This document shows, in pieces, positions 5,339 to 62,263 of a stretch of DNA of 64,000 nucleotides; positions within the stretch are counted from its first letter, which is position 1; each line of letters begins with the position of its first letter. Position numbers and translations under genes: made by a program. This DNA comes from Thiohalobacter sp. IOR34 (GTDB lineage: Bacteria; Pseudomonadota; Gammaproteobacteria; Thiohalobacterales; Thiohalobacteraceae): positions 717,438-781,437 of the forward strand of contig NZ_CP128988.1 in NCBI RefSeq assembly GCF_030406045.1. Reading direction: 5' to 3'. The notes beneath the pieces are model-generated. The model searched no databases. It saw only the letters and a program-made list of their open reading frames with translations, and was not told where the DNA came from.

Positions 5339-5718
5339 CCTGCCTATCGCACCAGGGATTCGATTGGCAGCTTGGCCGACCGCCGCGTAGGAGCGGTCTC
5401 CAGGCCGCGATCGGTGTTGGCCGCATGGCATCTTCAGCCGGCCCCCTGGGTAGGAGCGGTCTCCAGGCCGCGATCGGTGTTGGCTGCGCGGCACCTTCAG
5501 CCGGCCCCCTGGGTAGGAGCGGCCTCCAGGCCGCGATCGGTGTTGGCCGCACGGCATCTTCAGCCGGCCCCCTGGAACCAGAAAGGCGCGGAGCGACACA
5601 GGTTGGCGTTCCCTCCGGGCTCAAGGGGTACCCCCGCGATGCCCGCGGGTTTTTCGGGCAGGACCGGCCGCAAATGGGGTAGAATGAACGGTCTTTGTAC
5701 CGATTCCATACGATCCCC
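5339..5718. other. Intergenic region between the VPLPA-CTERM gene and prfC
   Basis: About half of this gap is a three-unit tandem repeat built on a REP element (5387-5575). A stretch at 5344-5375 faintly resembles one end of the 250-bp MITE-like family (CACCAGGGATTCGAT); this is tentative. No gene is seen. The prfC promoter was not recognised with confidence. Confidence 0.5.
5387..5575 (+). repeat. Tandem array of three 63-bp REP-containing units
   Basis: The units start at 5387, 5450 and 5513, exactly 63 bases apart. Each starts with the REP core GTAGGAGCGG(T/C)CTCCAGGCCGCGATC, whose halves pair as a hairpin. Each continues with a ~37-base non-palindromic segment ending GCCGGCCCCCTGG. The units differ at only a few positions, so they arose by duplication of the whole unit rather than by separate REP insertions. 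Confidence 0.9.
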
Positions 5719-7299: not shown

Positions 7300-7365
7300 C
7301 AGCGGGGTGACGCAGTCGCTGGGATGATGCGTGCTGCGCCGCGAATCCTGGCTGCCACGGGGGGG

Positions 7366-7392
7366 CAAATCGCGGCCTGGAGACCGCTCCTA
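7366..7392 (-). repeat. REP element, inverted copy
   Basis: This is a REP core in the opposite orientation to the array that follows, reading TCGCGGCCTGGAGACCGC then TCCTAC on the + strand. A single inverted copy facing a direct array gives the REP-pair (BIME-like) arrangement. Confidence 0.8.
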
Positions 7393-7393
7393 C

Positions 7394-7990
7394 GGGGCAA
7401 GACAGAACCTGAGCGTAGGAGCGGCCTCCAGGCCGCGACAGAAGGCCCGCAACAATCACAACGCAGCCGCCCATCCCACGGGGCAAGACAGAACCCGTGC
7501 GTAGGAGCGGCCTCCAGGCCGCGACAGAGGCCCACAACAATCGCAGCGCGGCCGCCATTCCCACGGGGCAAGGCCGACCCCCTCCCGTAGGAGCGGTCTC
7601 CAGGCCGCGACAGAGGCTCACAACAATCACAACGCAGCCGCCCATCCCCACGGGGCAAGACAGAACCCGTGCGTAGGAGCGGTCTCCAGGCCGCGACAGG
7701 GGGTCCCAACAATCGCAGCGCGGCCACCATTCCCAAGGGGCAAGGCCGACCCCCTCCCGTAGGAGCGGTCTCCAGGCCGCGACAGAGGCCCACAACAATC
7801 GCAGCGCGGCCACCATTCCCACGGGGCAAGGCCGCCCCCCTCCCGTAGGAGCGGCCTCCAGGCCGCGACAGAGGCCCACAACAATCGCAGCGCGGCCACC
7901 ATTCCCACGGGGCAAGGCCGACCCCCTCCCGTAGGAGCGGTTTCCAGGCCGCGACAGAAGGCCACGACAATCGCGGTGCGGCCGCCACCC
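7394..7990 (+). repeat. Tandem array with exact 86-bp period, seven REP cores
   Basis: REP cores starting GTAGGAGCGG lie at 7415, 7501, 7587, 7673, 7759, 7845 and 7931, each exactly 86 bases apart. The ~60-base segments between them are near-identical (CAGAGGCCCACAACAATCGC, then CACGGGGCAAG). Two subtypes differ at the 3' part: ACAGAACCCGTGC versus CCGACCCCCTCCC. The pattern of subtypes suggests repeated unequal crossing-over. Because the intervening sequences are repeats too, this is not a CRISPR. Confidence 0.92.
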
Positions 7991-8008
7991 CGGGCAACGG
8001 GATGGATC

Positions 8009-9226
8009 TCAGAGCACCGCGTCCCTGGCCACTACCACGATGCCGTTGGGCGAGATGGTGAAACGCTCGCGGTCGGCCTCCGGCTCGACACCGATACGGG
8101 TGCCGTCCGGGATCCGTACCCCCTTGTCGACGATGCAGCGATGCAGTTCGCAGCCATCCCCCACCTCCACCTCGTTGAACAGCAGGCTGTCCTGCACCAC
8201 GGTCTCGTCGCCGATATAGACGTGGGGGAAGAGGATGGAATGCTGTACGCTGCCGCCGGCGATCACCGTGCCGCCGGCGACGATGGAATTGAGGAACAGG
8301 CCCTCGTTGCCGGAGGCGCCGGGTATGGTTCGGGCCGGTGCCGCCTGCGGCTGATAGGTGCGGATCGGCCAGTCCTTCTGGTAGAGGTTGAGCGAGGGCT
8401 GCGGACGAAGCAGGTCCATGTTGGCCTCGTAGAAGGCGTCCAGGGTACCGACGTCGCGCCAGTAGCGGTCCGGTGTGACCCGCCCCTGTTCGCCGCCGAA
8501 GCGGTGGGCATAGAGACGCCGCTCCTGGATCAGGCCGGGGAGGATGTCCTTGCCGAAGTCGTGGCTGGAGGCGGGATCGGCATGGTCGGCGCGTAGCCGG
8601 TCCAGCAGCAGCTCGGTGGAGAACACATAGATGCCCATCGATACCAGGGCACGGCGGGGATCGTCCGGCATCGCGGTCGGCTGATCCGGTTTCTCCGCGA
8701 AGGCTGTGATGCGTTGCTCCGCGTCCACGCTGAGCACGCCGAACTGACTCGCCTCTTGCAGATCGACCTCCATGCAGGCGATGGTCACGTCAGCCGCCTG
8801 CTGTTCGTGGAAACGCAGCATGGCGGCATAGTCCATGCGGTAGATGTGATCGCCGGAGAGAATCAGCACCTGGCGCGCACCGCTGCGCTCCAGCAGATAG
8901 AGATTCTGGTAGATGGCATCGGCGGTGCCGGCATACCAGCTCTCGCCCATGCGCATCTGCGGCGGCACCGTGGTGATGTATTCGCCCAGTTCCGGATTGA
9001 AGATCGACCATCCGTCACGCAGGTGTTTCTGCAGCGAATGCGACTTGTACTGGGTCAGCACCAGGATGCGGCGCAATCCCGAGTGCAGACAGTTGCTGAG
9101 GGTGAAATCGATGATCCGGTATTTGCCACCGAAGGGGACCGCTGGCTTGGCACGGTCGCGGGTCAGCGGTTGCAGGCGTGAACCGATGCCGCCGGCCAGG
9201 ATGATGGTGAGGGTTTCGTCCAGCAT
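8009..9226 (-). CDS. glgC: Glucose-1-phosphate adenylyltransferase
   Basis: This enzyme makes ADP-glucose from ATP and glucose-1-phosphate, the regulated step of bacterial glycogen synthesis. The start at 9226 gives a 405-residue protein beginning [18 protein letters not shown]; a GAAGGA motif precedes it. The nucleotide-binding loop [22 protein letters not shown] is at residues ~10-32 and the [14 protein letters not shown] segment follows. A C-terminal left-handed beta-helix domain is indicated by the isoleucine-rich repeats ([19 protein letters not shown]). No other glg gene is adjacent. The 3' end faces the REP array. Confidence 0.94.
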
Positions 9227-18206: not shown

Positions 18207-20912
18207 ATGTCTTCCAGCGAAATAAAGACCACCTGCCCCTACTGCGGCGTTGGCTGCGGCGTCCTGGTCTCGGTGGACGAGGCCATGAACGTCAGCGTGC
18301 GCGGCGACCCCGAGCATCCCGCCAACCTCGGCCGGCTGTGCTCCAAGGGCGCCGCGCTGGGCGAGACGCTCGGCCCCGACAACCGGCTGCTGTATCCGAT
18401 GCTGGATGGTGAGCGCAGCGACTGGGGGAGGGCGCTGGACCGGGTGGCGGGCGAATTCAGGCGCATCATCGAGACCCACGGGCCGGACGCGGTGGCCTTC
18501 TACGTCTCCGGCCAGTTGCTCACCGAGGACTACTACGTGGCCAACAAGCTGATGAAGGGCTTCATCGGCTCGGCCAACATCGACACCAACTCCAGGCTGT
18601 GCATGTCCTCGGCGGTGGCCGGCCACAGGCGCGCCTTCGGCAGCGACAGCGTGCCCTGCAGCTACGAGGACCTGGAGCGGGCCAAGCTGATCGTGCTGGC
18701 CGGCTCCAACACCGCCTGGTGCCACCCGGTGCTGTTCCAGCGCATCCGCAGGGCAAAGCAGGACAACCCGGACCTGATGGTGGTGGTCATCGACCCGCGC
18801 CGCACGTCGAGCTGCGACATCGCCGATTTGCACCTGGCGCTGCGTCCCGGCAGCGACCTCACCCTGTTCAACGGCCTGCTGGCCTGGCTGGAACGGGCCG
18901 GCGAGGTCAACCGCCTGTTCGTCGAGCGCTGCACCGAGGGCGCGGCCGAGGCCCTGGCCGCCGCCCGCGAACAGGCGGGCGATCCCGACCAGGTGGCGCG
19001 CGACTGTGGCCTGCCCACGGAGCAGTTGCGCGAATTCTACCGCCTGTTCGCCCGCACCGAGCGGGTGGTGACGGTGTTCTCGCAGGGCATCAACCAGTTC
19101 TCCTATGGCACCGACAAGGTCAACGCCATCCTCAACTGCCACCTTGCCACCGGGCGCATCGGCCGCCCCGGCATGGGACCCTTCTCCCTTACCGGCCAGC
19201 CCAACGCCATGGGCGGGCGTGAGGTGGGCGGCCTGGCCAACCAGCTTGCCGCGCACATGGACATCGAAGATCCCGCTCACCGTGATCGGGTGCAGCGTTT
19301 CTGGGACTCGCCACGCATCGCCGAACGCCCCGGCCTGAAGGCGGTGGAGCTGTTCCAGGCGGTGGCCGAAGGTCGGGTGAAGGCGCTGTGGATCATGGCC
19401 ACCAACCCGGCGGTGAGCCTGCCCGACAGCAACCGCGTGCGTGCAGCGCTCGAGGCCTGCGAGTTCCTGGTAGTGTCGGACTGCGTGGAACGCACCGACA
19501 CCACCGCCTATGCCGACGTGCTGCTGCCCGCGCTGGGCTGGGGCGAGAAGGAAGGCACGGTCACCAACTCCGAGCGACGCATCTCGCGCCAGCGCGCCTT
19601 CCTGTCCGCGGCGGGCGAAGCCCGTCCCGACTGGTGGATCGTCAGCGAGGCGGCGCGGCGCATGGGCTTCGAGCAGGCCTTTGACTACCGCACGGTGGCG
19701 GAGGTGTGGCGCGAGCATGCGGCCCTGTCCGGTTTCGAGAACGACGGCGCGAGGGATTTCGACATCAGCGCCCTGGCCGGACTCGGCGACGAGGCCTATG
19801 ATCACCTGCAGCCCATTCAATGGCCGGTGACGGCCAACACGCCTGACGGCACGGCGCGCCTGTTCGGCGACGGGCGCTTCCATACCCCCAGCGGTCGCGC
19901 GCGGCTGGTGGCGGTGGGCGAACGCCGGCCCGAGCACGCCACCGACGCCGACTACCCGCTGGTGCTCAACACCGGCCGGGTGCGCGACCACTGGCACACC
20001 ATGACCCGCACCGGCAAGTCGCCGCGCCTGTCCGGCCACATCGTCGAACCCTATGCCGAGCTGCATCCGCACGACGCCGCGCGTTATGGCATCAGCGACA
20101 ACGGCCTGGTGCGGCTGCGCAGCCGCTGGGGCGAGATCAGCGTGCGGGCGCGCGTCAGCGATGCCCAGCAGCCGGGCAGCGTGTTCGTGCCCATGCACTG
20201 GAACCTGCAGTTCTCCAGTGTGCCCAGCGTCGACTGCCTGGTGAACCCGGCTACCGACCCCGTCTCGGGCCAGCCCGAGTTCAAGCACACGCCGGTGGCC
20301 ATCGAGCCACGCGACCTGGCCTGGTACGGCTTCATCCTCTCGCGCCGCCGGCTGGAACTGCACGACGCCGTACCCCAGGGCGCCTTCTCTGGCTCCTGCG
20401 GAACCATTCACCTTGCCTACTGGGTCTGCGCCAAAGGGCAGGGCATGTGGCGTTACGAGATCGCCGGCGACCAGGCGCCGGAAGACTGGGCGCGCCAGGC
20501 CCGCGTGCTGCTGTGCAGCCAGGACAGAGAGGTGGACTGGCTGGAATACTTCGATACCGCCGCCAACCGCTACCGCGCCGCGCGCCTGGTGGACGGCCGG
20601 CTGGAGAGCTGCATCTTCATCGGTCCGGACATCGAGTTGCCGTCGCGTGACTGGCTGTCGCAACTGTTCGAGCAGGGCCCCCTGAACGATGCCGAGCGCA
20701 CCAGCCTGCTCACTGGCAAGCCCGCCGCCGGCCAGAAGGATGCCGGGCACGTCGTCTGTGCCTGCTTCGGGGTCGGCGTCAATACCCTGATCGAAGCCAT
20801 ACAGGAACAGAAGCTGAGCAGCGTGGAAGAGATCGGGGAGGTGCTGAAAGCCGGTACCAATTGCGGTTCCTGCGTCCCGGAACTCAAGGCATTGCTGGCG
20901 GCACATCACTGA
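18207..20912 (+). CDS. nasA: Assimilatory nitrate reductase, catalytic subunit
   Basis: This cytoplasmic molybdenum enzyme reduces nitrate to nitrite. The start at 18207 (MSSSEIKTTCPYCGVGCG) gives 901 residues. An N-terminal [4Fe-4S] cluster is bound by the cysteines of TCPYCGVGCGV (residues ~10, 13, 17) and LCSKG (~48). The bis-MGD domains follow, with GSNTAWCHPV and GQPNAMGGREVGG segments. At the C-terminus a BFD-like [2Fe-2S] domain (CACFGVGVNTL near 851 and NCGSCVPEL near 885) is fused, as in Klebsiella-type NasA. An electron-donor subunit (NasB) is not adjacent, so electrons may come from ferredoxin or a distant partner. It completes the nirBD-nasA group. Confidence 0.94.
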   Translation: MSSSEIKTTCPYCGVGCGVLVSVDEAMNVSVRGDPEHPANLGRLCSKGAALGETLGPDNRLLYPMLDGERSDWGRALDRVAGEFRRIIETHGPDAVAFYVSGQLLTEDYYVANKLMKGFIGSANIDTNSRLCMSSAVAGHRRAFGSDSVPCSYEDLERAKLIVLAGSNTAWCHPVLFQRIRRAKQDNPDLMVVVIDPRRTSSCDIADLHLALRPGSDLTLFNGLLAWLERAGEVNRLFVERCTEGAAEALAAAREQAGDPDQVARDCGLPTEQLREFYRLFARTERVVTVFSQGINQFSYGTDKVNAILNCHLATGRIGRPGMGPFSLTGQPNAMGGREVGGLANQLAAHMDIEDPAHRDRVQRFWDSPRIAERPGLKAVELFQAVAEGRVKALWIMATNPAVSLPDSNRVRAALEACEFLVVSDCVERTDTTAYADVLLPALGWGEKEGTVTNSERRISRQRAFLSAAGEARPDWWIVSEAARRMGFEQAFDYRTVAEVWREHAALSGFENDGARDFDISALAGLGDEAYDHLQPIQWPVTANTPDGTARLFGDGRFHTPSGRARLVAVGERRPEHATDADYPLVLNTGRVRDHWHTMTRTGKSPRLSGHIVEPYAELHPHDAARYGISDNGLVRLRSRWGEISVRARVSDAQQPGSVFVPMHWNLQFSSVPSVDCLVNPATDPVSGQPEFKHTPVAIEPRDLAWYGFILSRRRLELHDAVPQGAFSGSCGTIHLAYWVCAKGQGMWRYEIAGDQAPEDWARQARVLLCSQDREVDWLEYFDTAANRYRAARLVDGRLESCIFIGPDIELPSRDWLSQLFEQGPLNDAERTSLLTGKPAAGQKDAGHVVCACFGVGVNTLIEAIQEQKLSSVEEIGEVLKAGTNCGSCVPELKALLAAHH

Positions 20913-33523: not shown

Positions 33524-35005
33524 TCAGGGGGTATGCCGGGTGTCGCCGTGCTCCTCCTGGTCGGCGAGCGCCTCCTGCTTGAGCTGCCGGAGCCGCGATT
33601 CGACCCGTGACACCTGGTAGAAGTCCAGATCGTCCTGCTTCAGCGCCAGGGTCAGTTGCTCGATGGCAGTTCTTGTCTGGCCCTGCAGGTAGTAGTACTC
33701 GGCCATGGCGGCATGGGCCTCGGCGACGGCGCCCAGCCCGGTCTCGGCCCGGGCGAGCAGGGCGTAGAGGCTCGGGTCGCGGGTTTCGCCGTCCCGCAGG
33801 CGGGATGTCAGGAGTTCCCGGGCCTGCCGGAAGTGACGGGTTCCGACCAGGGCCTCGGCATAGACGCGGATCACCGTCAGGTTGTCGGGGTAGATCTTGA
33901 GCAGACGGTCCAGCTCTGCCAGGGCCTCATCGTCGCGGTGACTCTGGCGCAGGGCCTGGCTGTAGGCGGTGCGGTAGGCGATCCGGTCCGGGTCGGCCTT
34001 GCGCAGGCTGGAGAGGATCTGCAGGGCCTGTTCGTTCCGGCCAAGCCGCAATGCGGCCAGGGCCAGGCCATAGCGCCGGGCGGCGGCCGGCATCGGCCGG
34101 TCCGGTTCCCGGAAATAGCTCAGCAGCTGTTGCGGGTCGCGGGCGTCGAGTACCCGCAGCTTGGCCTGGGTGAGGTGGAAAGCCAGGCTGTTGCGAGCCT
34201 GTGCCGCCGGCATCTGGTCGGCGCGTGACAGGGCATCGGAGATGCGTTCCGAGGTGACCGGGTGGGTGCTGAGGAAGGGTGGCGGGCGGTTGCCGTAATA
34301 ACGGGTGAACTGCTGCAGCCGTTCGAAGAAGGCCGGCATGCCCAGTGGATCGAAGCCGGCCTGCTGCAGGGTCTGCATGCCGATGTGGTCGGCCTCCTTC
34401 TCGTTACTGCGGGTGAAGTCGATCTGCTGCTGCAGGCTGCCGGCCTGGGCCGACATCAGGGCGGCCATGCCGGCCTCGCTGTTCTGGGTGCCGATGAGGA
34501 TGGCGGCCAGGATGGCGGCCGCCGTGGGCAGGCTCATGCGGCTGGCGCTGTCGTAGGCGCGGGCCAGGTGGCGCTGGGTGACGTGGGCGATCTCGTGGGC
34601 CATGACCGCGGCCAGCTCGCTTTCGTTGCGGGCCGCCAGGATCAGACCGGAGTGGATGCCGATGTAGCCACCAGGCCCTGCGAAGGCGTTGATGGCGTCG
34701 TCCTTGACCACGAAGAAGGTGAAGGGTTGAGCGGCCCCGTCGCCGGCCGCGGCCAGCCGGCTGCCGAGCGCCTGGACGTAGCTGGTGATCTCCGGGTCCT
34801 CGACGAAGGCCACGCTGAGGCGCAGCTGGCGCATGAACACCTCGCCCAGGGCGCGTTCCTGTTCCGGCGATACCGTGGCGCCGGCAGGATCGCCGATCTC
34901 CGGCAGAACGATGGGGGCGGCCGGGACGGACAGGCTGGTGGCCAGGCACAGGATGGCCAGGGTGGTGCGGATGCGCTGAGGGGTTCTCACGGCATGACGA
35001 TCCAT
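33524..35005 (-). CDS. bepA: M48-family periplasmic metalloprotease/chaperone, BepA (YfgC)-like
   Basis: BepA assists assembly and degradation of outer-membrane proteins, notably LptD, in the periplasm. The ~493-residue product has a signal peptide, an M48 domain with the zinc motif MAHEIAHVTQRH and the downstream ligand Glu in NEKEADHIG, and a C-terminal TPR region (~300-480) ending in EALADQEEHGD. The start is uncertain: ATG 35005 and ATG 35041 both lack a good ribosome-binding site. Family length in E. coli is ~487, which favours 35005. Confidence 0.88.
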   Translation of the reverse strand: MDRHAVRTPQRIRTTLAILCLATSLSVPAAPIVLPEIGDPAGATVSPEQERALGEVFMRQLRLSVAFVEDPEITSYVQALGSRLAAAGDGAAQPFTFFVVKDDAINAFAGPGGYIGIHSGLILAARNESELAAVMAHEIAHVTQRHLARAYDSASRMSLPTAAAILAAILIGTQNSEAGMAALMSAQAGSLQQQIDFTRSNEKEADHIGMQTLQQAGFDPLGMPAFFERLQQFTRYYGNRPPPFLSTHPVTSERISDALSRADQMPAAQARNSLAFHLTQAKLRVLDARDPQQLLSYFREPDRPMPAAARRYGLALAALRLGRNEQALQILSSLRKADPDRIAYRTAYSQALRQSHRDDEALAELDRLLKIYPDNLTVIRVYAEALVGTRHFRQARELLTSRLRDGETRDPSLYALLARAETGLGAVAEAHAAMAEYYYLQGQTRTAIEQLTLALKQDDLDFYQVSRVESRLRQLKQEALADQEEHGDTRHTP

Positions 35006-35517
35006 TGCCGAACGACTGCGTTCGTACTCTGTGACCACCATACGGGAGTCTTCGTTCCATGGCCAGACGGGACGCTTCTGCCCGCGCCAGCGTGGGGCAG
35101 GCTGCCTGGCCCGCGCGGCGAATCCCCGGGGCGACCTATGGCGCAGGGGTTGAAGGCAAGGTCGGCAAACAATATTATTGGATTCTAATATACCTTGGGC
35201 ATGGCTTTTATTAACCCGGCAACTAAATATGCCGAGTTCAGGACTTCAGGCCTGTTCCGGGACAAGGCGCGGCCCGCCGGCAAGGGTCGGTCTCCTTGTC
35301 AAGGGCCGGAACGCCGGACCGGGACAGGCCTGAAGCCCCGGTCATTCCATGATTCAATGGGTTCGGCCGCCGTGTGCCTGTCTGCGGACGGCGTTATCGA
35401 ACCTTGCCGTAGGCATGCTACGGCGGCGTTTCGATGCCTTGCCGCAGGCAGGCACACGGCGGCTGAACACGGCATATTTAGTCGCCGGGTTAATATCGAG
35501 TAGAGGCAATAAAAAGG
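35006..35517. other. Intergenic region between the BepA-like gene and the rhodanese gene
   Basis: Apart from the first ~200 bases next to the protease gene, it is occupied by a palindromic MITE-like element (35209-35495). The promoter of the rhodanese gene may lie in the element's right end. No gene is seen. Confidence 0.5.
35209..35495. mobile_element. MITE-like element with nested palindromes
   Basis: Outer inverted repeats of 26 bp with one mismatch are seen: 35209-35234, starting TATTAACCCGGCAACTAAAT, with 35470-35495. Inside are two large hairpins. The first pairs CTTCAGGCCTGT (35244-35255) with ACAGGCCTGAAG (35324-35335) and has an inner GACAAGG/CCTTGTC stem. The second pairs CCGCCGTGTGCCTG (35367-35380) with CAGGCACACGGCGG (35449-35462) and has an inner GCCGTAG/CTACGGC stem (35406-35424). 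No frame encodes a transposase. It ends 22 bases before the rhodanese start. Confidence 0.8.
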
Positions 35518-35880
35518 ATGGATATGTATACAGTCAACGAGATCGACAGTCAGACCCTGGCAGAGACCCTGGCCGAGAATCCGCAGGCGGTTCGGCTGAT
35601 CGATGTCCGTTCCCCCGCGGAGATGGCGCAGGGGATCATCCCGGGCAGCGAGCCGCTGCCCCTGCATCTGCTGCCGCTGCAGGCGGATACCCTGCTCGCA
35701 GGTGACCGGCCGCTGGTCATCTATTGCCGGAGTGGCGCGCGTTCCGCCCAGGCCTGCATGTTCCTTGCGGGGCGCGGTGGGAATGCACAGCGTATCCTCA
35801 ACCTGCGTGGTGGAATCATCGATTGGGTCCGCCAGGGAAATCAGGTGGTTAGCCCGGAAGCAGGGCGCGCTGTGGGTTGA
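35518..35880 (+). CDS. Rhodanese-like sulfurtransferase
   Basis: The product has 120 residues: a single rhodanese domain with the active-site loop CRSGARS (Cys near residue 70). The IDVRSPAEMAQGIIPGS segment is the usual CH2A-type start and NLRGGIIDWVRQG the end. No signal peptide is seen, so it is cytoplasmic. It likely moves persulfide sulfur to acceptors such as TusA, encoded 146 bases downstream. Together with the sox operon, this suggests a role in handling stored or Sox-derived sulfur. AAAAAGG precedes the ATG. Confidence 0.92.
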   Translation: MDMYTVNEIDSQTLAETLAENPQAVRLIDVRSPAEMAQGIIPGSEPLPLHLLPLQADTLLAGDRPLVIYCRSGARSAQACMFLAGRGGNAQRILNLRGGIIDWVRQGNQVVSPEAGRAVG

Positions 35881-35920
35881 TGCGCCGCGTCTGCGACGCT
35901 GTTCGGTGATACGCTCGGGC

Positions 35921-35949
35921 TTGCGTTTACAGGGTACTTACCTTATAAG
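35921..35949 (+). promoter_or_regulatory. Sigma-70 promoter of tusA
   Basis: TTGCGT (35921-35926), 17 bases, TATAAG (35944-35949). The transcript should start near 35956, 70 bases before tusA. Confidence 0.6.
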
Positions 35950-36025
35950 TGCACACTCAAAAATTCGAGCACCACTGATTTCCGTACCACAATGATGTAC
36001 TTGTAAAGAGAGGAGTACCCTGATA

Positions 36026-36256
36026 ATGGCGAATTTCGACGATGAACTGGATGCGTCCGGCCTGAACTGCCCGCTGCCGATCCTGCGTGCCAAGAAGGCG
36101 CTGACTGCCCTGGATAGCGGCAAGGTCCTGCATATCATTGCGACCGATCCGGGTTCGGTGAAGGATTTCGAGGCCTTTGCCAAGCAGACCGGCAACGAGC
36201 TGCTGGAGTCCAAGGAAGAGGGTGGCAAGTTCCACTTCCTGATCAAGAAGGCCTGA
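36026..36256 (+). CDS. tusA: Sulfur carrier protein TusA
   Basis: The product has 76 residues with the CPxP motif (GLNCPLPILRAKKAL) whose Cys carries persulfide. In sulfur oxidisers TusA delivers sulfur between rhodanese, DsrE-type proteins and the Dsr or Hdr-like oxidation systems; in other bacteria it serves tRNA thiolation. The neighbourhood (rhodanese, Sox) favours the former. AGAGAGGAG lies upstream. A strong bidirectional terminator follows. Confidence 0.95.
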   Translation: MANFDDELDASGLNCPLPILRAKKALTALDSGKVLHIIATDPGSVKDFEAFAKQTGNELLESKEEGGKFHFLIKKA

Positions 36257-36304
36257 TCCGGAGACTGGTCCGCGCCGGCGTCTCGGCAGCGGGCGGACTA
36301 TCCG

Positions 36305-40891: not shown

Positions 40892-42040
40892 ATGAACATG
40901 ACCGGGTTCGTGAAGAATAACTATCTGAAAATCTTTGGCTTTGTTCCTGCGTGTGTCCTGTTTGCCGTTGGCGCGCTGGACATGCTTGGCCTGGATTTTC
41001 TGGAAGATGCTTCGCCGGGGCTGATGCTCGCCATCGGTGCCCTGGCCTCGTTGCCGCTGTTCCTGGTCATGCGGCGGGGGGCGCCGGCAGCGACAGTGGC
41101 AACGGCCATGCAGCGTCTGGCTACGGGTGAGCCGGGGGTGTCGCTGGAAGCTTCCCGCGACCGGGTCAGTGAGGAATTCGCTTCAGCCTTCAATGCCCTG
41201 GCCGAGGCCAACGGCCAGCGCGCCGCCACCCTGCAGCATTTCAACGACATGCTGGGCGAGGCGCTGGATCAGCTTCAGCTTCTCACGGCCCAGGTGGCAG
41301 ATCAGTCGCAGGGCGGCGATCAGGGGCAGGCGCTCTCGGTGGCGATCGACGAGCTGGCCGCGGCGGTCAACGAGATTGCGAGCAACGCCGCCTCGGCGGC
41401 GGGCACCACCCACCAGGCGCTGGAAGAGAGCGACAAGGGCAAGGTGTCCATGACCGATGCCATGGGTTCGATGAGCAGCCTGGCGGACTACATCGGCCGG
41501 GCCACGGGCACGGTCGAGGGGCTGAGCCAGGAGTCGCTGAACATCGGCGCGGTGCTCGACGTCATCCGTGGCATCGCCGAGCAGACCAATCTGTTGGCCC
41601 TGAATGCGGCCATCGAGGCGGCCCGGGCTGGCGAGCAGGGGCGCGGCTTTGCGGTGGTGGCCGACGAGGTCCGCACCCTGGCCAGCCGCACCCAGCAGTC
41701 GACCAGCGAGATTCAGGAGATGATCGAGTCTCTGCAGAAGAAGGCCCAGGAGGCCGCCTCGGTGATGGAGGAAGGCGGTGGCCAGGTCTCCAGGGTCGAG
41801 GAGATGATCGAGAATGCCTGCATCTCCCTGGCCGAGATCGGCGGCTACATGCAGACCATCGACACCCTGAATACCACGGTGGCCAGCGCCGCCGAGGAAC
41901 AGAGCGCCGCGGTGCAATCGATCCGCGGCATCATCGAAAGCTGCAATGACGCATCCGGTCAGAGCGGAGAGCTCCTTTCCGGGTTGAGCCGCGTTGCCGA
42001 ACGGTTGAGCGATGCGCGGATGCAGCTGGGCTCGATGTAA
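40892..42040 (+). CDS. Chemoreceptor-like signalling protein without periplasmic sensor domain
   Basis: The product has 382 residues from ATG 40892. Two membrane helices (~10-30 and ~40-60) are separated by only a short loop, so no periplasmic ligand domain exists. A HAMP-like linker and the MCP signal domain (~150-370) follow with [20 protein letters not shown] and [16 protein letters not shown]. It probably senses a cytoplasmic or membrane signal such as redox or energy state, or works through a partner. It is close in sequence to the next chemoreceptor in the signalling region. Confidence 0.85.
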
Positions 42041-42170: not shown

Positions 42171-43349
42171 ATGAAAAAGAGCATCCTGCGTCGACTTCTT
42201 CTTGCCAGTCTTCTCTTCGGCCTGTTCATCGGTGCCCTGTTCCCCCTCTTTGCCCAGTTGTTCGTCGACTGGAAGGACGGCATGTTCGGCTGGTTCGTGC
42301 TGAGCTGTCTGCTCGGAGGGGGGCTGGTCGGTCTCAGCAACTACTGGCTGGTGCAGGCGATCCTGTTGCGCAAGCTGCGCCGCATCTCAGAGGTCGCCAA
42401 CGCCATCAGTCAGAACGACGTCAGCCAGCACTGCGAGATCGAGAGCCATGACCTGATCGGGGAGATCGTCGACAGCTTCAATCGCATGGCGGCCAATCTG
42501 CGTGAGGTGATCGGCGAGATCAGCGGCGTCACCGCCCAGCTCGCCTCGGCGGCGGAGGAGATGTCGGCCATCACCGACGAGGCCAGCCGGGGCGTGCAAC
42601 GCCAGCATCAGGAGATCGAACGTGTCGCCACGGCGATGGGCGAGATGAACCACACCGTGCAGGACATGGCGGAGCAGGCGGGTCAGGCCGCGGAATCGGC
42701 CTGTCGGGCCGATAGCGAGGCGCGCAGCGGTGCCGAGCTTTCCACCGAGGCGCGGGCCGGCATCGGCAAGCTGGTGAGCGAGGTTGAGAAGGCCTCGGGC
42801 GTGATCGGACGCCTGGAGCAGGAGTCGGACAACATCGGCATGGTGCTGGACGTCATCCGCGGCATCGCCGAGCAGACCAATCTGCTGGCCCTGAACGCGG
42901 CCATCGAGGCGGCCCGGGCCGGCGAGCAGGGCCGCGGCTTTGCAGTGGTGGCCGACGAGGTGCGCACCCTGGCCAGCCGCACCCAGCAGTCGACCGAGGA
43001 GATCCAGGGCATGATCGAGCAGCTGCAGACCGGAAGTCGTGATGCGGTGCAGGTGATGCGGGCGGCCCAGGAGATGGCGCATGGTAGTGCCTCCCAGGTC
43101 GAGGAGGCAGCCGGCTCCCTCTGCGAGATCGCCGAGGCCGTCGCCTTCGTCAGCGGCCAGACCAGCCGGATCGCCGAGGCGGCCCGCAGCCAGAGCCAGG
43201 TCGCGAGCGAGATCAACGGCAACGTGGAGGCCATTCAGGTCGCCGCCGACCAGACCGCAGCCGGCGCCCAGCAGACGGCCAGCGCCAGCGATGAACTGGC
43301 GCGCCTGTCCTCCCAGCTGCAGACCCTGATGGCCCGTTTCCGGACCTAG
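42171..43349 (+). CDS. Methyl-accepting chemotaxis protein with HAMP, no periplasmic domain
   Basis: The product has 392 residues. Two membrane helices (~8-28 and ~40-60) are joined by a short WKDGMFG loop. HAMP lies at ~65-120 and the MCP signalling hairpin in the C-terminal two thirds, with [16 protein letters not shown] near residue 245. The stretch of ~25 residues around the hairpin is almost identical to that of the upstream gene, suggesting local duplication or gene conversion. No ligand-binding module is seen. It ends before the repeat region at 43350. Confidence 0.88.
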
Positions 43350-43372: not shown

Positions 43373-43443
43373 AATCGCGGCCTGGAGGCCGCTCCTACCA
43401 TGGTGCCGCCATGTCCCGTAGGAGCGGCCTCCAGGCCGCGATC
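43373..43443. repeat. REP pair, first
   Basis: An inverted REP (43373-43398) and a direct REP (43418-43443) flank 19 bases (CATGGTGCCGCCATGTCCC) that are themselves a partial dyad. The two cores can pair with each other to form a long hairpin. Confidence 0.88.
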
Positions 43444-43915
43444 CCCGGCGGGTCCAGGCACGCCTTGATCCGGGGCCTTGGTGCAATATCCGGGCTAGGA
43501 GTCTGACGGACTCAGGCCCCATCTACTGCGCTGATGGGAGGGTGGCCGAATTCCCCCGATTTCTTGTTGCGTAGGTCCGCGATGCGCCTTGAAATCGTGA
43601 AGATTTGTTCTCCCTCTTCCGCCATGCTCGCTACGATTGCCTGAATCCGGCAGACTCCTGGTGCCTGTCAACACCGCGATCCCCGGCGGGTCGAGGCACG
43701 CCTTGATCCGGGGCCTTGGTGCAATATCCGGGCTAGGAGTCTGACGGACTCAGGCCCCATCTACTGCGCTGATGGGAGGGTGGCCGAATTCCCCCGATTT
43801 CTCGTTGCGTTGGTCCGCGATGCGCCTTGAAATCGTGAAGATTTGTTCTCCCTCTTCCGCCATGCTCGCTACGATTGCCTGAATCCGGCAGACTCCTGGT
43901 GCCTGTCAACACCGC
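43438..43915 (+). repeat. Tandem duplication, two 238-bp units
   Basis: Units start at 43438 and 43676 with GCGATCCCCGGCGGGTC and differ at only a few positions. Each contains a solo MITE-family end (43476-43494 and 43714-43732, CCTTGGTGCAATATCCGGG followed by CTAG) and a ~161-base segment bounded by GGAGTCTG and CAGACTCC. A third, partial unit follows the second REP pair at 43987-44050. Confidence 0.9.
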
Positions 43916-43918
43916 GCC

Positions 43919-43989
43919 AATCGCGGTCTGGAGGCCGCTCCTACCATGGTGCCTCCATGCCCCGTAGGAGCGGCCTCCAGGCCGCGATC
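43919..43989. repeat. REP pair, second
   Basis: This is the same arrangement as at 43373-43443: an inverted REP (43919-43943), a short spacer CATGGTGCCTCCATGCCCC and a direct REP (43964-43989). The pairs bracket the 238-bp duplication, so the whole block has been duplicated at more than one scale. Confidence 0.88.
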
Positions 43990-44125
43990 CCCGGCGGGTC
44001 CAGGCCGCCTTCATCCGGGGCCTGTGCAATATCCGGGTTAGGAGTCTGTCCGAGTCATGTCACCATGGTGGCGTAGCCGATAGGCAGGCGGCCGCGAATC
44101 CGATAAAATGAGCAAATACCACGAT

Positions 44126-60667: not shown

Positions 60668-61009
60668 CGGGATAGCCACGAAACCCACAAAAAGGACTGA
60701 TAGCCACGAAACCCACGAAATCCACGAAAAAGAGTGATAGCCACGGAATCCACGAAATCCACGAAAAAGACTGATAGCCACGGAATCCACGGAAAACACG
60801 GAAGGTTTCATGCCGAGAGTCCGCGCGTAGCGCGTCTCTCGCAAAAAATAGCTTTTTTCCGTGGATTCCGTGGCCATGGATCTTTTCGTGGGTTTCGTGG
60901 GTTTCGTGGCCATTTCCACAATGCCCCTGTGTTCGCGGTTCGAAGGAACTCGTTCCGCTTCCGTCGGTCGGACAAGGCAGGTTCAGTTGCCGGGTCAATT
61001 TAAAGGGGG
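60668..61009. other. Intergenic region between purL and msrP
   Basis: Most of this 342-base gap is copy 2 of the palindromic repeat (60674-60914). The remaining ~95 bases lead to the AGGGGG site of msrP. No gene is seen. Confidence 0.5.
60674..60914 (+). repeat. Palindromic CACGAAA-type repeat, copy 2
   Basis: This is the longest copy. The left arm has four units of the type GCCACGAAACCCACGAAATC-CACGAAAAAG separated by (A/G)(G/C)TGATA. The centre is GAGAGTCCGCGCGTAGCGCG, continuing TCTCTCG, and the right arm ends TCTTTTCGTGGGTTTCGTGG. The number of left-arm units differs among the three copies. Confidence 0.9.
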
Positions 61010-61957: not shown

Positions 61958-62263
61958 TCGGGGAGATGGCCACGGTGCCACCCTCAAAGGATATGGCCAC
62001 GAAACCCACGAAACGCACGAAAAAGGCTGATAGCCACGAAACCCACGAAATCCATAAAAAGGAGTGATAACCACGGAATCCATGGAAAACACGGAAGGTT
62101 TCTTGCCGGGAGTCCGCGCGTAGCGCGTCTCCCGCAATGAATGGCTTTTTTCCGTGGATTCCGTGGCCATGGATCTTTTCGTGGAGTCCGTGGCCGTCGA
62201 TCATCCTTTTCTCTGGCGATTATTGATGACCCTGCATTCTGGAGCCTGGCGTTTCCTGTGGTC
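61958..62263. other. Intergenic region between msrP and msrQ
   Basis: This 306-base gap is unusually long for msrPQ, which are normally adjacent. It consists mainly of copy 3 of the palindromic repeat (61993-62190), which appears to have inserted between the two genes. Confidence 0.6.
61993..62190 (+). repeat. Palindromic CACGAAA-type repeat, copy 3
   Basis: The left arm has three units of the CACGAAACCCACGAAA type, then ACGGAAGGTTTC, a centre GGGAGTCCGCGCGTAGCGCG-TCTCCC and a right arm CCGTGGATTCCGTGGCCATG. It is in the same orientation as copies 1 and 2. Confidence 0.9.

Follow-up and report, generated by a model that had tools for sequence, protein, structure and literature searches.

A facing-hairpin core shared by probable IS630-type MITEs with different ends, with one copy upstream of rhodanese-tusA in Thiohalobacter sp. 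IOR34

An element of 287 bp at 35209..35495 of the window, the 64-kb stretch of Thiohalobacter sp. IOR34 DNA analyzed here, is very probably a non-autonomous MITE of the IS630/Tc1-mariner type, and this genome has 12 full-length copies that can be delimited, the one described here included. MITEs as such are a known kind of element; the new part is the core of two facing hairpins, which is common to elements with different ends.

The element begins with TATTAACCCGGC at 35209 and runs up to GCCGGGTTAATA at 35495. Its left terminal inverted repeat, which extends on the + strand from TATTAACCCGGC to TTCA (35209..35239), pairs with the right one on the - strand (35465..35495) in an outer stem of 31 bp, and its first two and last two bases, TA in both cases, are the two copies of the presumed target duplication. 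Enclosed by these ends are hairpin A (35241..35339, + strand, 99 nt), a spacer of 26 nt defined by the hairpin model scan (35340..35365) and hairpin B (35366..35463, - strand, 98 nt), with an inner stem predicted in each hairpin. The two hairpins align as copies of a single motif, CAAGGC...AACGCnG, inverted such that A carries it on the + strand (73.6 bits with the hairpin model) and B, facing A, on the - strand (88.1 bits), both hairpins having been used to train that model; the common CAAGGC and AAC(G)CnG lie at internal-loop positions. The halves of the MITE are accordingly mirrored, each consisting of a terminus, (T)TCAG and a hairpin, with the motif strand starting at the outer end. No transposase gene is present in the 287 bp, which are overlapped only by short mechanical ORFs. 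The predicted fold of 35209-35495 has an energy of -199.9 kcal/mol, as against -115.93 (sd 4.82) for shuffles (z -17.4), and none of 200 shuffles folded as well. A prior sequence-only reading had delineated the nested palindromes at these coordinates, which are exact to the base, and had suggested the RNA fold, which is indeed far better than that of shuffled sequences. It had further described outer inverted ends of 26 bp and two independent hairpins of about 95 bases: the inverted ends, and two hairpins with inner stems, are borne out, but the terminal pairing runs over 31 bases and the hairpins are not independent, since B repeats the motif of A in inverted orientation.

A query of 341 bases recovered 101 matching pieces from the 2.96-Mb genome, many of them single ends or hairpin self-matches. 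Both ends are present in the 12 copies of 280-289 bp (loci L001-L008, L011, L013, L014 and L053:38-323), and there are additionally shorter forms of 250, 204, 201 and 128 bp as well as solo palindromes of about 34 bp. A 24-base end pattern (<=3 mismatches) has 45 matches in the genome, as opposed to 0 for the reversed control, and two in the 64-kb window (chance mean 0.00), both of which are the two ends of the element. The 287-bp query found no match in E. coli genomes, and plasmids, phages and viral contigs, the last searched with an exact pattern, likewise gave none. TA is found at 22 of the 24 ends of the full-length copies, the exceptions being one end each of L008 and L014. For empty sites, the flanks of 55 elements were joined with one TA and compared with uninterrupted repeats among the collected loci; such sites are paralogous, i.e. 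repeat copies, and most of the 55 elements gave no such comparison. Four comparisons were obtained. The joined flanks of L004 match an uninterrupted place (L012/L056) over 100 positions at 80% identity with a single TA kept and the junction ungapped, while a more divergent repeat (L037) has TC at the junction. L115, whose left end now reads AA, matches another stretch of the same locus over 34 positions at 88% identity with the TA kept. L016 is colinear with five distinct places having TG at the junction, and L075, from genome G001, with four distinct places of the Thiohalobacter sp. IOR34 genome having AA; in both a two-base step is seen. All four comparisons thus fit a two-base step, with exact TA in two. 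The sequence-only reading had named a MITE among its possibilities and pointed to further TATTAACCCGGC-ended copies as the check; the dozen full-length copies, their dispersal, the terminal inverted repeats, the TA ends and the empty sites fitting TA duplication all agree with that possibility.

The solo palindromes have the form TATTAACCCGGCA-N8-TGCCGGGTTAATA and are shared by this genome with Ca. Thiodiazotropha (L032:3717-3750, L038:3593-3626, L113:346-379 and others); they are perhaps deletions between TGCCG repeats of full elements, or are themselves mobile. At L020:1488-1569, L038:3593-3626 and L042:3802 ends adjoin partial ends (CCCGGCAACTA followed by TTAACCC or similar), an arrangement that might reflect insertion of a copy at the TA inside another end, or else slippage.

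The assignment to the IS630 type draws on two elements of about 1.09 kb each (L167 1309-2401 and L177 1453-2547) with TATTAACCCGGC at both ends and an intact transposase gene, the products of which score 224.6 and 226.2 bits against NF033545 (IS630) and possess DDE_3 and HTH_33 domains. Of the 31-bp ends of the MITE these elements share the 12 terminal bases, TA included; beyond them neither the remainder of the end nor the interior is alike. L177 resides in G387, a Chromatiales MAG that also carries a MITE at locus L125. Among the 25 genomes searched for this transposase, 17, counted from loci, carry TATTAACCCGGC-ended MITEs or ends, and of these 17 only G387 has a close homologue (71%); there is none in the genome of Thiohalobacter sp. 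IOR34 itself. In the other searched genomes homologues are absent at E<=1e-15 or distant, with 32-46% identity, and the DDE_3 domain was found in 2 of 11 carrier genomes searched. Other IS630 elements of the class end in TATTAACCGTCTCA, TATTGAGCCTTGC, TACTAACCTGCGCG or TACTAACTTTCACG, so that a TAYTRA start is common among IS630 elements. From these terminal sequences we infer that the likeliest mobilizer would be an IS630-family transposase sharing the TATTAACCCGGC termini and now missing from most carriers, where it may have been lost. Such a transposase would bind both ends of the MITE in trans, excise it and insert it at a TA, which would then be duplicated.

Several IS630 copies were considered and rejected as the parent. 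A degenerate IS630 gene at L047:2505-3632 has the TATTAACCCGGC end just past its former stop region on the right; this end is not native, because the left side, with the native end, reads TATTGACCGTCTCA and the closest relatives (L154 and L155) have TATTAACCGTCTCA at both ends. The foreign right end is either a replaced end or an inserted solo end. Five identical IS630 copies of the same genome end in TATTGAGCCTTGC, and an IS630 remnant beside L009 seems, as read by eye, to have TACTAA-type ends.

A different mobilization system is implied if the element is a REPIN, namely two inverted REPs moved by a RAYT (a Y1 transposase). The genome does encode three Y1_Tnp genes and contains the solo palindromes, but the TA duplication speaks against this, as does the REP-like family with GTAGGAGCGGCC in the window, the sequence of which is different from that of the element. 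RAYTs typically accompany GTAG REPs, and in the fetched loci no end-like site (<=9/24 mismatches) lies near any of the three Y1 genes, by which a RAYT was rejected as the mobilizer. We accordingly regard a REPIN as very unlikely. The window has further repeats in its own right. A REP-like repeat, GTAGGAGCGGYCTCCAGGCCGCGA, is found at 5380-5575, 7580-7649, 7924-7993, 43411-43480 and 43957-44026, partly in tandem at 63-bp spacing, and 7328-8073 comprises seven tandem copies at 86-bp spacing which contain the same REP-like unit. There is a 238-bp tandem duplication (99%) at 43436-43911, and two pairs of repeats of 200-239 bp (41500-41738 with 42791-43029, and 60700-60900 with 61993-62193), the members of each pair being about 1.29 kb apart.

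The copy under study is separated by 22 bases (35496-35517), the very distance given in the sequence-only reading, from the ATG at 35518 of a gene for a rhodanese-domain protein (35518..35880, + strand), downstream of which lies a gene for a TusA-family sulfurtransferase (36026..36256, + strand). The rhodanese and tusA genes are adjacent in all 10 family relatives searched, and in none of the 10 is there a TATTAACCCGGC-like site (<=2 mismatches) at this locus within up to 1.5 kb on each side (about 490 bp upstream in L193). Upstream of the insertion is an AT-rich palindrome, AATATTATTGGATTCTAATAT (35171..35191), which appears promoter- or operator-like and is overlapped by a promoter-like match of the consensus scan at 35150-35178. 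Its ATATTA-N7-CTAATA pattern recurs upstream of rhodanese in 5 of the 10 relatives (L192, L194, L195, L196 and L198), belonging to several genera, at 34-40 nt before the aligned start in four and 118 nt in one, and looser versions are visible in other relatives. In the window the pattern stands at 35172-35190, 346 nt before the rhodanese start, because the MITE lies between. The palindrome is a candidate regulator site of the rhodanese-tusA operon, and the MITE, situated between it and the rhodanese start, most likely occupies the transcribed leader below the ancestral promoter. The rhodanese mRNA would then most likely begin with the folded element. This agrees with the sequence-only reading, which put the element in the gene's leader or promoter. 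The copy, whose 287-nt fold likely stands in the leader of an operon of sulfur metabolism, is thereby a natural test of the effect of such folds on a gene. When the 10 relatives were checked with the hairpin model, one of them, Thiohalobacter thiocyanaticus (G006, L197), showed a facing hairpin pair (69.0 and 29.5 bits) between TAGTGGTCCTTCAAGG-type ends upstream of rhodanese; this is apparently a separate, independent insertion, since the double hairpin lies beyond the AT-rich palindrome.

The same location raises the question of whether the element evolved as a structured RNA leader to control rhodanese-tusA, the other suggestion of the sequence-only reading. The 22-base distance to the start codon, the strong fold and the covarying stems described below would suit such a leader. 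Nevertheless, the element is carried by many unrelated loci and is absent from this locus in all 10 relatives, which refutes the proposal as to its origin and leaves it highly improbable. Covarying stems in copies restricted to this locus had been named as the mark of an RNA element: covariation was indeed found, but in dispersed copies, and the restriction to the locus was not. A search of 34900-36300 against Rfam gave 0 matches at the gathering cut-off; the relaxed threshold gave six weak matches to microRNA families, far below the cut-off.

Constraint on the stems was assessed in an alignment of 34 full-length elements from this genome, G001, Thiohalobacter thiocyanaticus, Sedimenticola, Ca. 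Thiodiazotropha, Ca. Tenderia and Chromatiales MAGs, leaving aside L134 and L148, which repeat L061 and L062. Length and both hairpins are conserved across genera. Over the 34 elements 97.3% of cells pair (98.1% in the outer 31-bp stem), and 65 of the 103 predicted pairs show compensatory change, i.e. both sides altered with the pair kept in at least one sequence. Cells with double changes number 451, as against 119.0 (sd 10.7) in shuffles, with none of 500 shuffles reaching this value, though relatedness of the elements inflates this test. Pairing falls to 35-40% when partners are slid by 1-3 columns, a control biased toward the structure, because the structure was derived from the same alignment. 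The two ends of one element mostly match each other even where the ends differ between elements, and, in place of selection, template switching could well have homogenized the arms. That the whole is a chance structure, or else a simple internal-deletion derivative lacking a conserved core, is barely credible: internal deletion of an IS is a frequent origin of MITEs, according to the relevant passage of PMC10969869, yet the folding z-score, the length and hairpins kept across genera, the covariation and the recurrence of the core with other ends together refute it.

This recurrence emerged from searches with a covariance model of the hairpin motif, R1 (98 positions, 24 pairs), which was trained on the TATTAACCCGGC family and does not impose facing pairs; about 10 candidates per genome were scored, and the E-values are rough. 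Within the class, 369 genomes were sampled and 98 gave a match to R1 (E<=1e-4, including that of Thiohalobacter sp. IOR34), or 84 of 314 when only those of high quality are counted. In the phylum, 58 of 398 genomes gave candidate matches (E<=1e-5), many of them weak; 29 of these genomes do not belong to the class. A second copy of the hairpin is nearby in 23 of 28 loci scanned from the class-level matches, the remaining 5 having a single copy, and all 23 pairs face inward (+ then -). Many of the facing pairs are flanked by inverted repeats that measure about 33 bp and have TCA as their last bases, among them TATTAACCCGGC, TACTAATGAGAACG, TACTAAGACAAACG, TACTAAGCCGAACC, TAGTGTCCTGTCACACG, TAGTACTCTTTC, TAGTGTGGTGTAACG and others; in a few the ends are short or unclear, or start, as read, with bases other than TA. 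In loci that do not belong to the TATTAACCCGGC set, grouped into 33 clusters, the loop bases are conserved at 0.85-1.00; for part of these loci the ends were determined, bearing in mind that R1 also scores these bases. Where the ends are TATTAACC or TACTAATG, and also in L227, about 25-26 nt separate the two hairpins, and otherwise mostly 7-11 nt.

Comparison of the cores suggests that their similarity does not track end type, as judged from pairwise identities. The core of L064, with TACTAATGAG ends, and that of L120, which comes from Ca. Tenderia and is TATTAACCCGGC-ended, have an identity of 0.80; the nearest cores to the one with TACTAAGACAAACG ends in this genome, outside its own family, are those of L214 and L219 (0.74 and 0.72); and for the core of G067, with TACTAAGCCGAACC ends, the closest is a TATTAACC core, though the similarity is weak (0.67-0.68). 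In many other cases the closest core does have the same or similar ends. The identity of the TACTAAGACAAACG-ended family with the 244-bp family mentioned in the sequence-only reading was considered and found unsupported: R1 has no further strong match in the window (a weak one lies at 18559-18644, E 0.48), and the repeats of about 239 nt give no strong match either. A second family of this genome, with a facing-hairpin core and TACTAAGACAAACGATAAC ends, is represented at L013:1816-2016, L010:1705-1907, L024:1660-1860, L042:3555-3757, L053:3251-3453 and L037:5555-5755, and some of its copies directly adjoin TATTAACCCGGC ends.

Based on these observations we tentatively propose, well aware that the proposal could turn out wrong, that the inherited part of this proteobacterial group is the two facing CAAGGC...AACGCnG hairpins, the termini having changed to suit different IS630-type transposases across bacterial families, and that the hairpin rather than the terminus carries the selected function, as a single-stranded DNA transposition signal or as an RNA signal. 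The mirrored arrangement of end plus hairpin might help transposition or persistence, e.g. if it folds where the DNA becomes single-stranded during replication or excision, and the hairpin core would be kept while the recognition ends change, following whichever IS630 transposase is at hand. If this is true, a covariance model can unite seemingly unrelated MITE families, and the question arises as to why two copies of a 98-base hairpin are retained in a parasite for which the ends alone would suffice.

A rival possibility, which we consider rather unlikely, is that the hairpin core acts as RNA: a transcript from either side would first meet a sense copy of the motif, shielding, cutting or terminating the message, and transposition would only spread the core. 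The facing arrangement in all 23 pair-holding loci of the 28 scanned would make such an effect independent of orientation, the internal-loop bases of the hairpin are conserved, and transcription through the rhodanese copy is likely; however, the facing symmetry also suits a DNA-level end complex, and the consensus scan found no terminator-like site. A further pointer is that on the motif strand G.T mismatches modestly outnumber A.C mismatches, although G.T is the milder mismatch in DNA too. The alignment-based version of this strand test gives 41 G.T against 22 A.C cluster-cells (p 0.011), together with a + strand contrast between hairpins A and B (Fisher p 0.016). With the model-derived set the counts are 80 against 34 in the outer stem and 19 against 5 in an inner stem, for which p 1.7e-7 is overstated, since two stem positions account for much of the excess and an RNA model had been used to select the set; without poorly paired positions they become 41 against 23 (p 0.016) or 33 against 15 (p 0.007). 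One version is devoid of the excess (30 against 33), but in that version a boundary pair of hairpin B that never varies (alignment columns 160-262) enters as A.C for every one of 19 clusters, and without this pair the counts are, by subtraction, 30 against 14. As the result varies with the treatment, the G.T excess is suggestive only. The proposal of an inherited hairpin core with changing termini allows for a signal in either nucleic acid.

In the open-access literature, as far as its text is available to searches, neither the hairpin core nor an exchange of ends is described, which, with subscription papers and ISfinder lying outside this scope, is no proof of novelty. Text matches to the end sequences included none about the element as judged by title, and those in PMC8542531 are primers. 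Among known systems, RUP of pneumococcus, of 107 bp, has ends like those of IS630-Spn1, inserts at TA and is proposed, in the account of PMC2229807, to be mobilized in trans. RUP together with IS630-Spn1 thus resembles our element in being short and non-coding with IS630-like ends and a TA target; it differs, on a comparison by description only, in that no structural motifs are reported for it in that account, as against 287 bp with two facing hairpins. The Correia/NEMIS elements of Neisseria are likewise small palindromic MITEs, whose RNA folds and can be processed when co-transcribed with neighboring genes, but by their description in the same source they measure about 107 and 155 bp, with a double facing hairpin undescribed there (PMC2229807). 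The CIR repeats of Caulobacter and its relatives similarly have two long arms joined by a linker, and differ, again by description only, in being devoid of end-to-end pairing, in containing a GANTC motif and in being only partly MITE-like (PMC2229807). QMITE1 and QMITE2 of Coxiella burnetii are gammaproteobacterial MITEs with very stable predicted folds, as is the element, and with transcripts; in contrast, the portion of PMC5896051 dealing with them gives variable direct repeats of 2-4 or 7-11 nt, and its authors found no relatives in other genomes. Hairpin-forming MITEs are also described from a sulfur oxidizer, Ca. Thiomargarita nelsonii, one of which has TATA-type ends and was related by the authors to IS630/Correia; compared by description only, the ends of these MITEs are TATAG, or consist of 10-bp direct and 19-bp inverted repeats, in the corresponding section of PMC4853749. 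In the passages of these papers bacterial MITEs are thus treated as separate families by their ends or repeats, whereas in the group described here the ends vary and the structured core stays.
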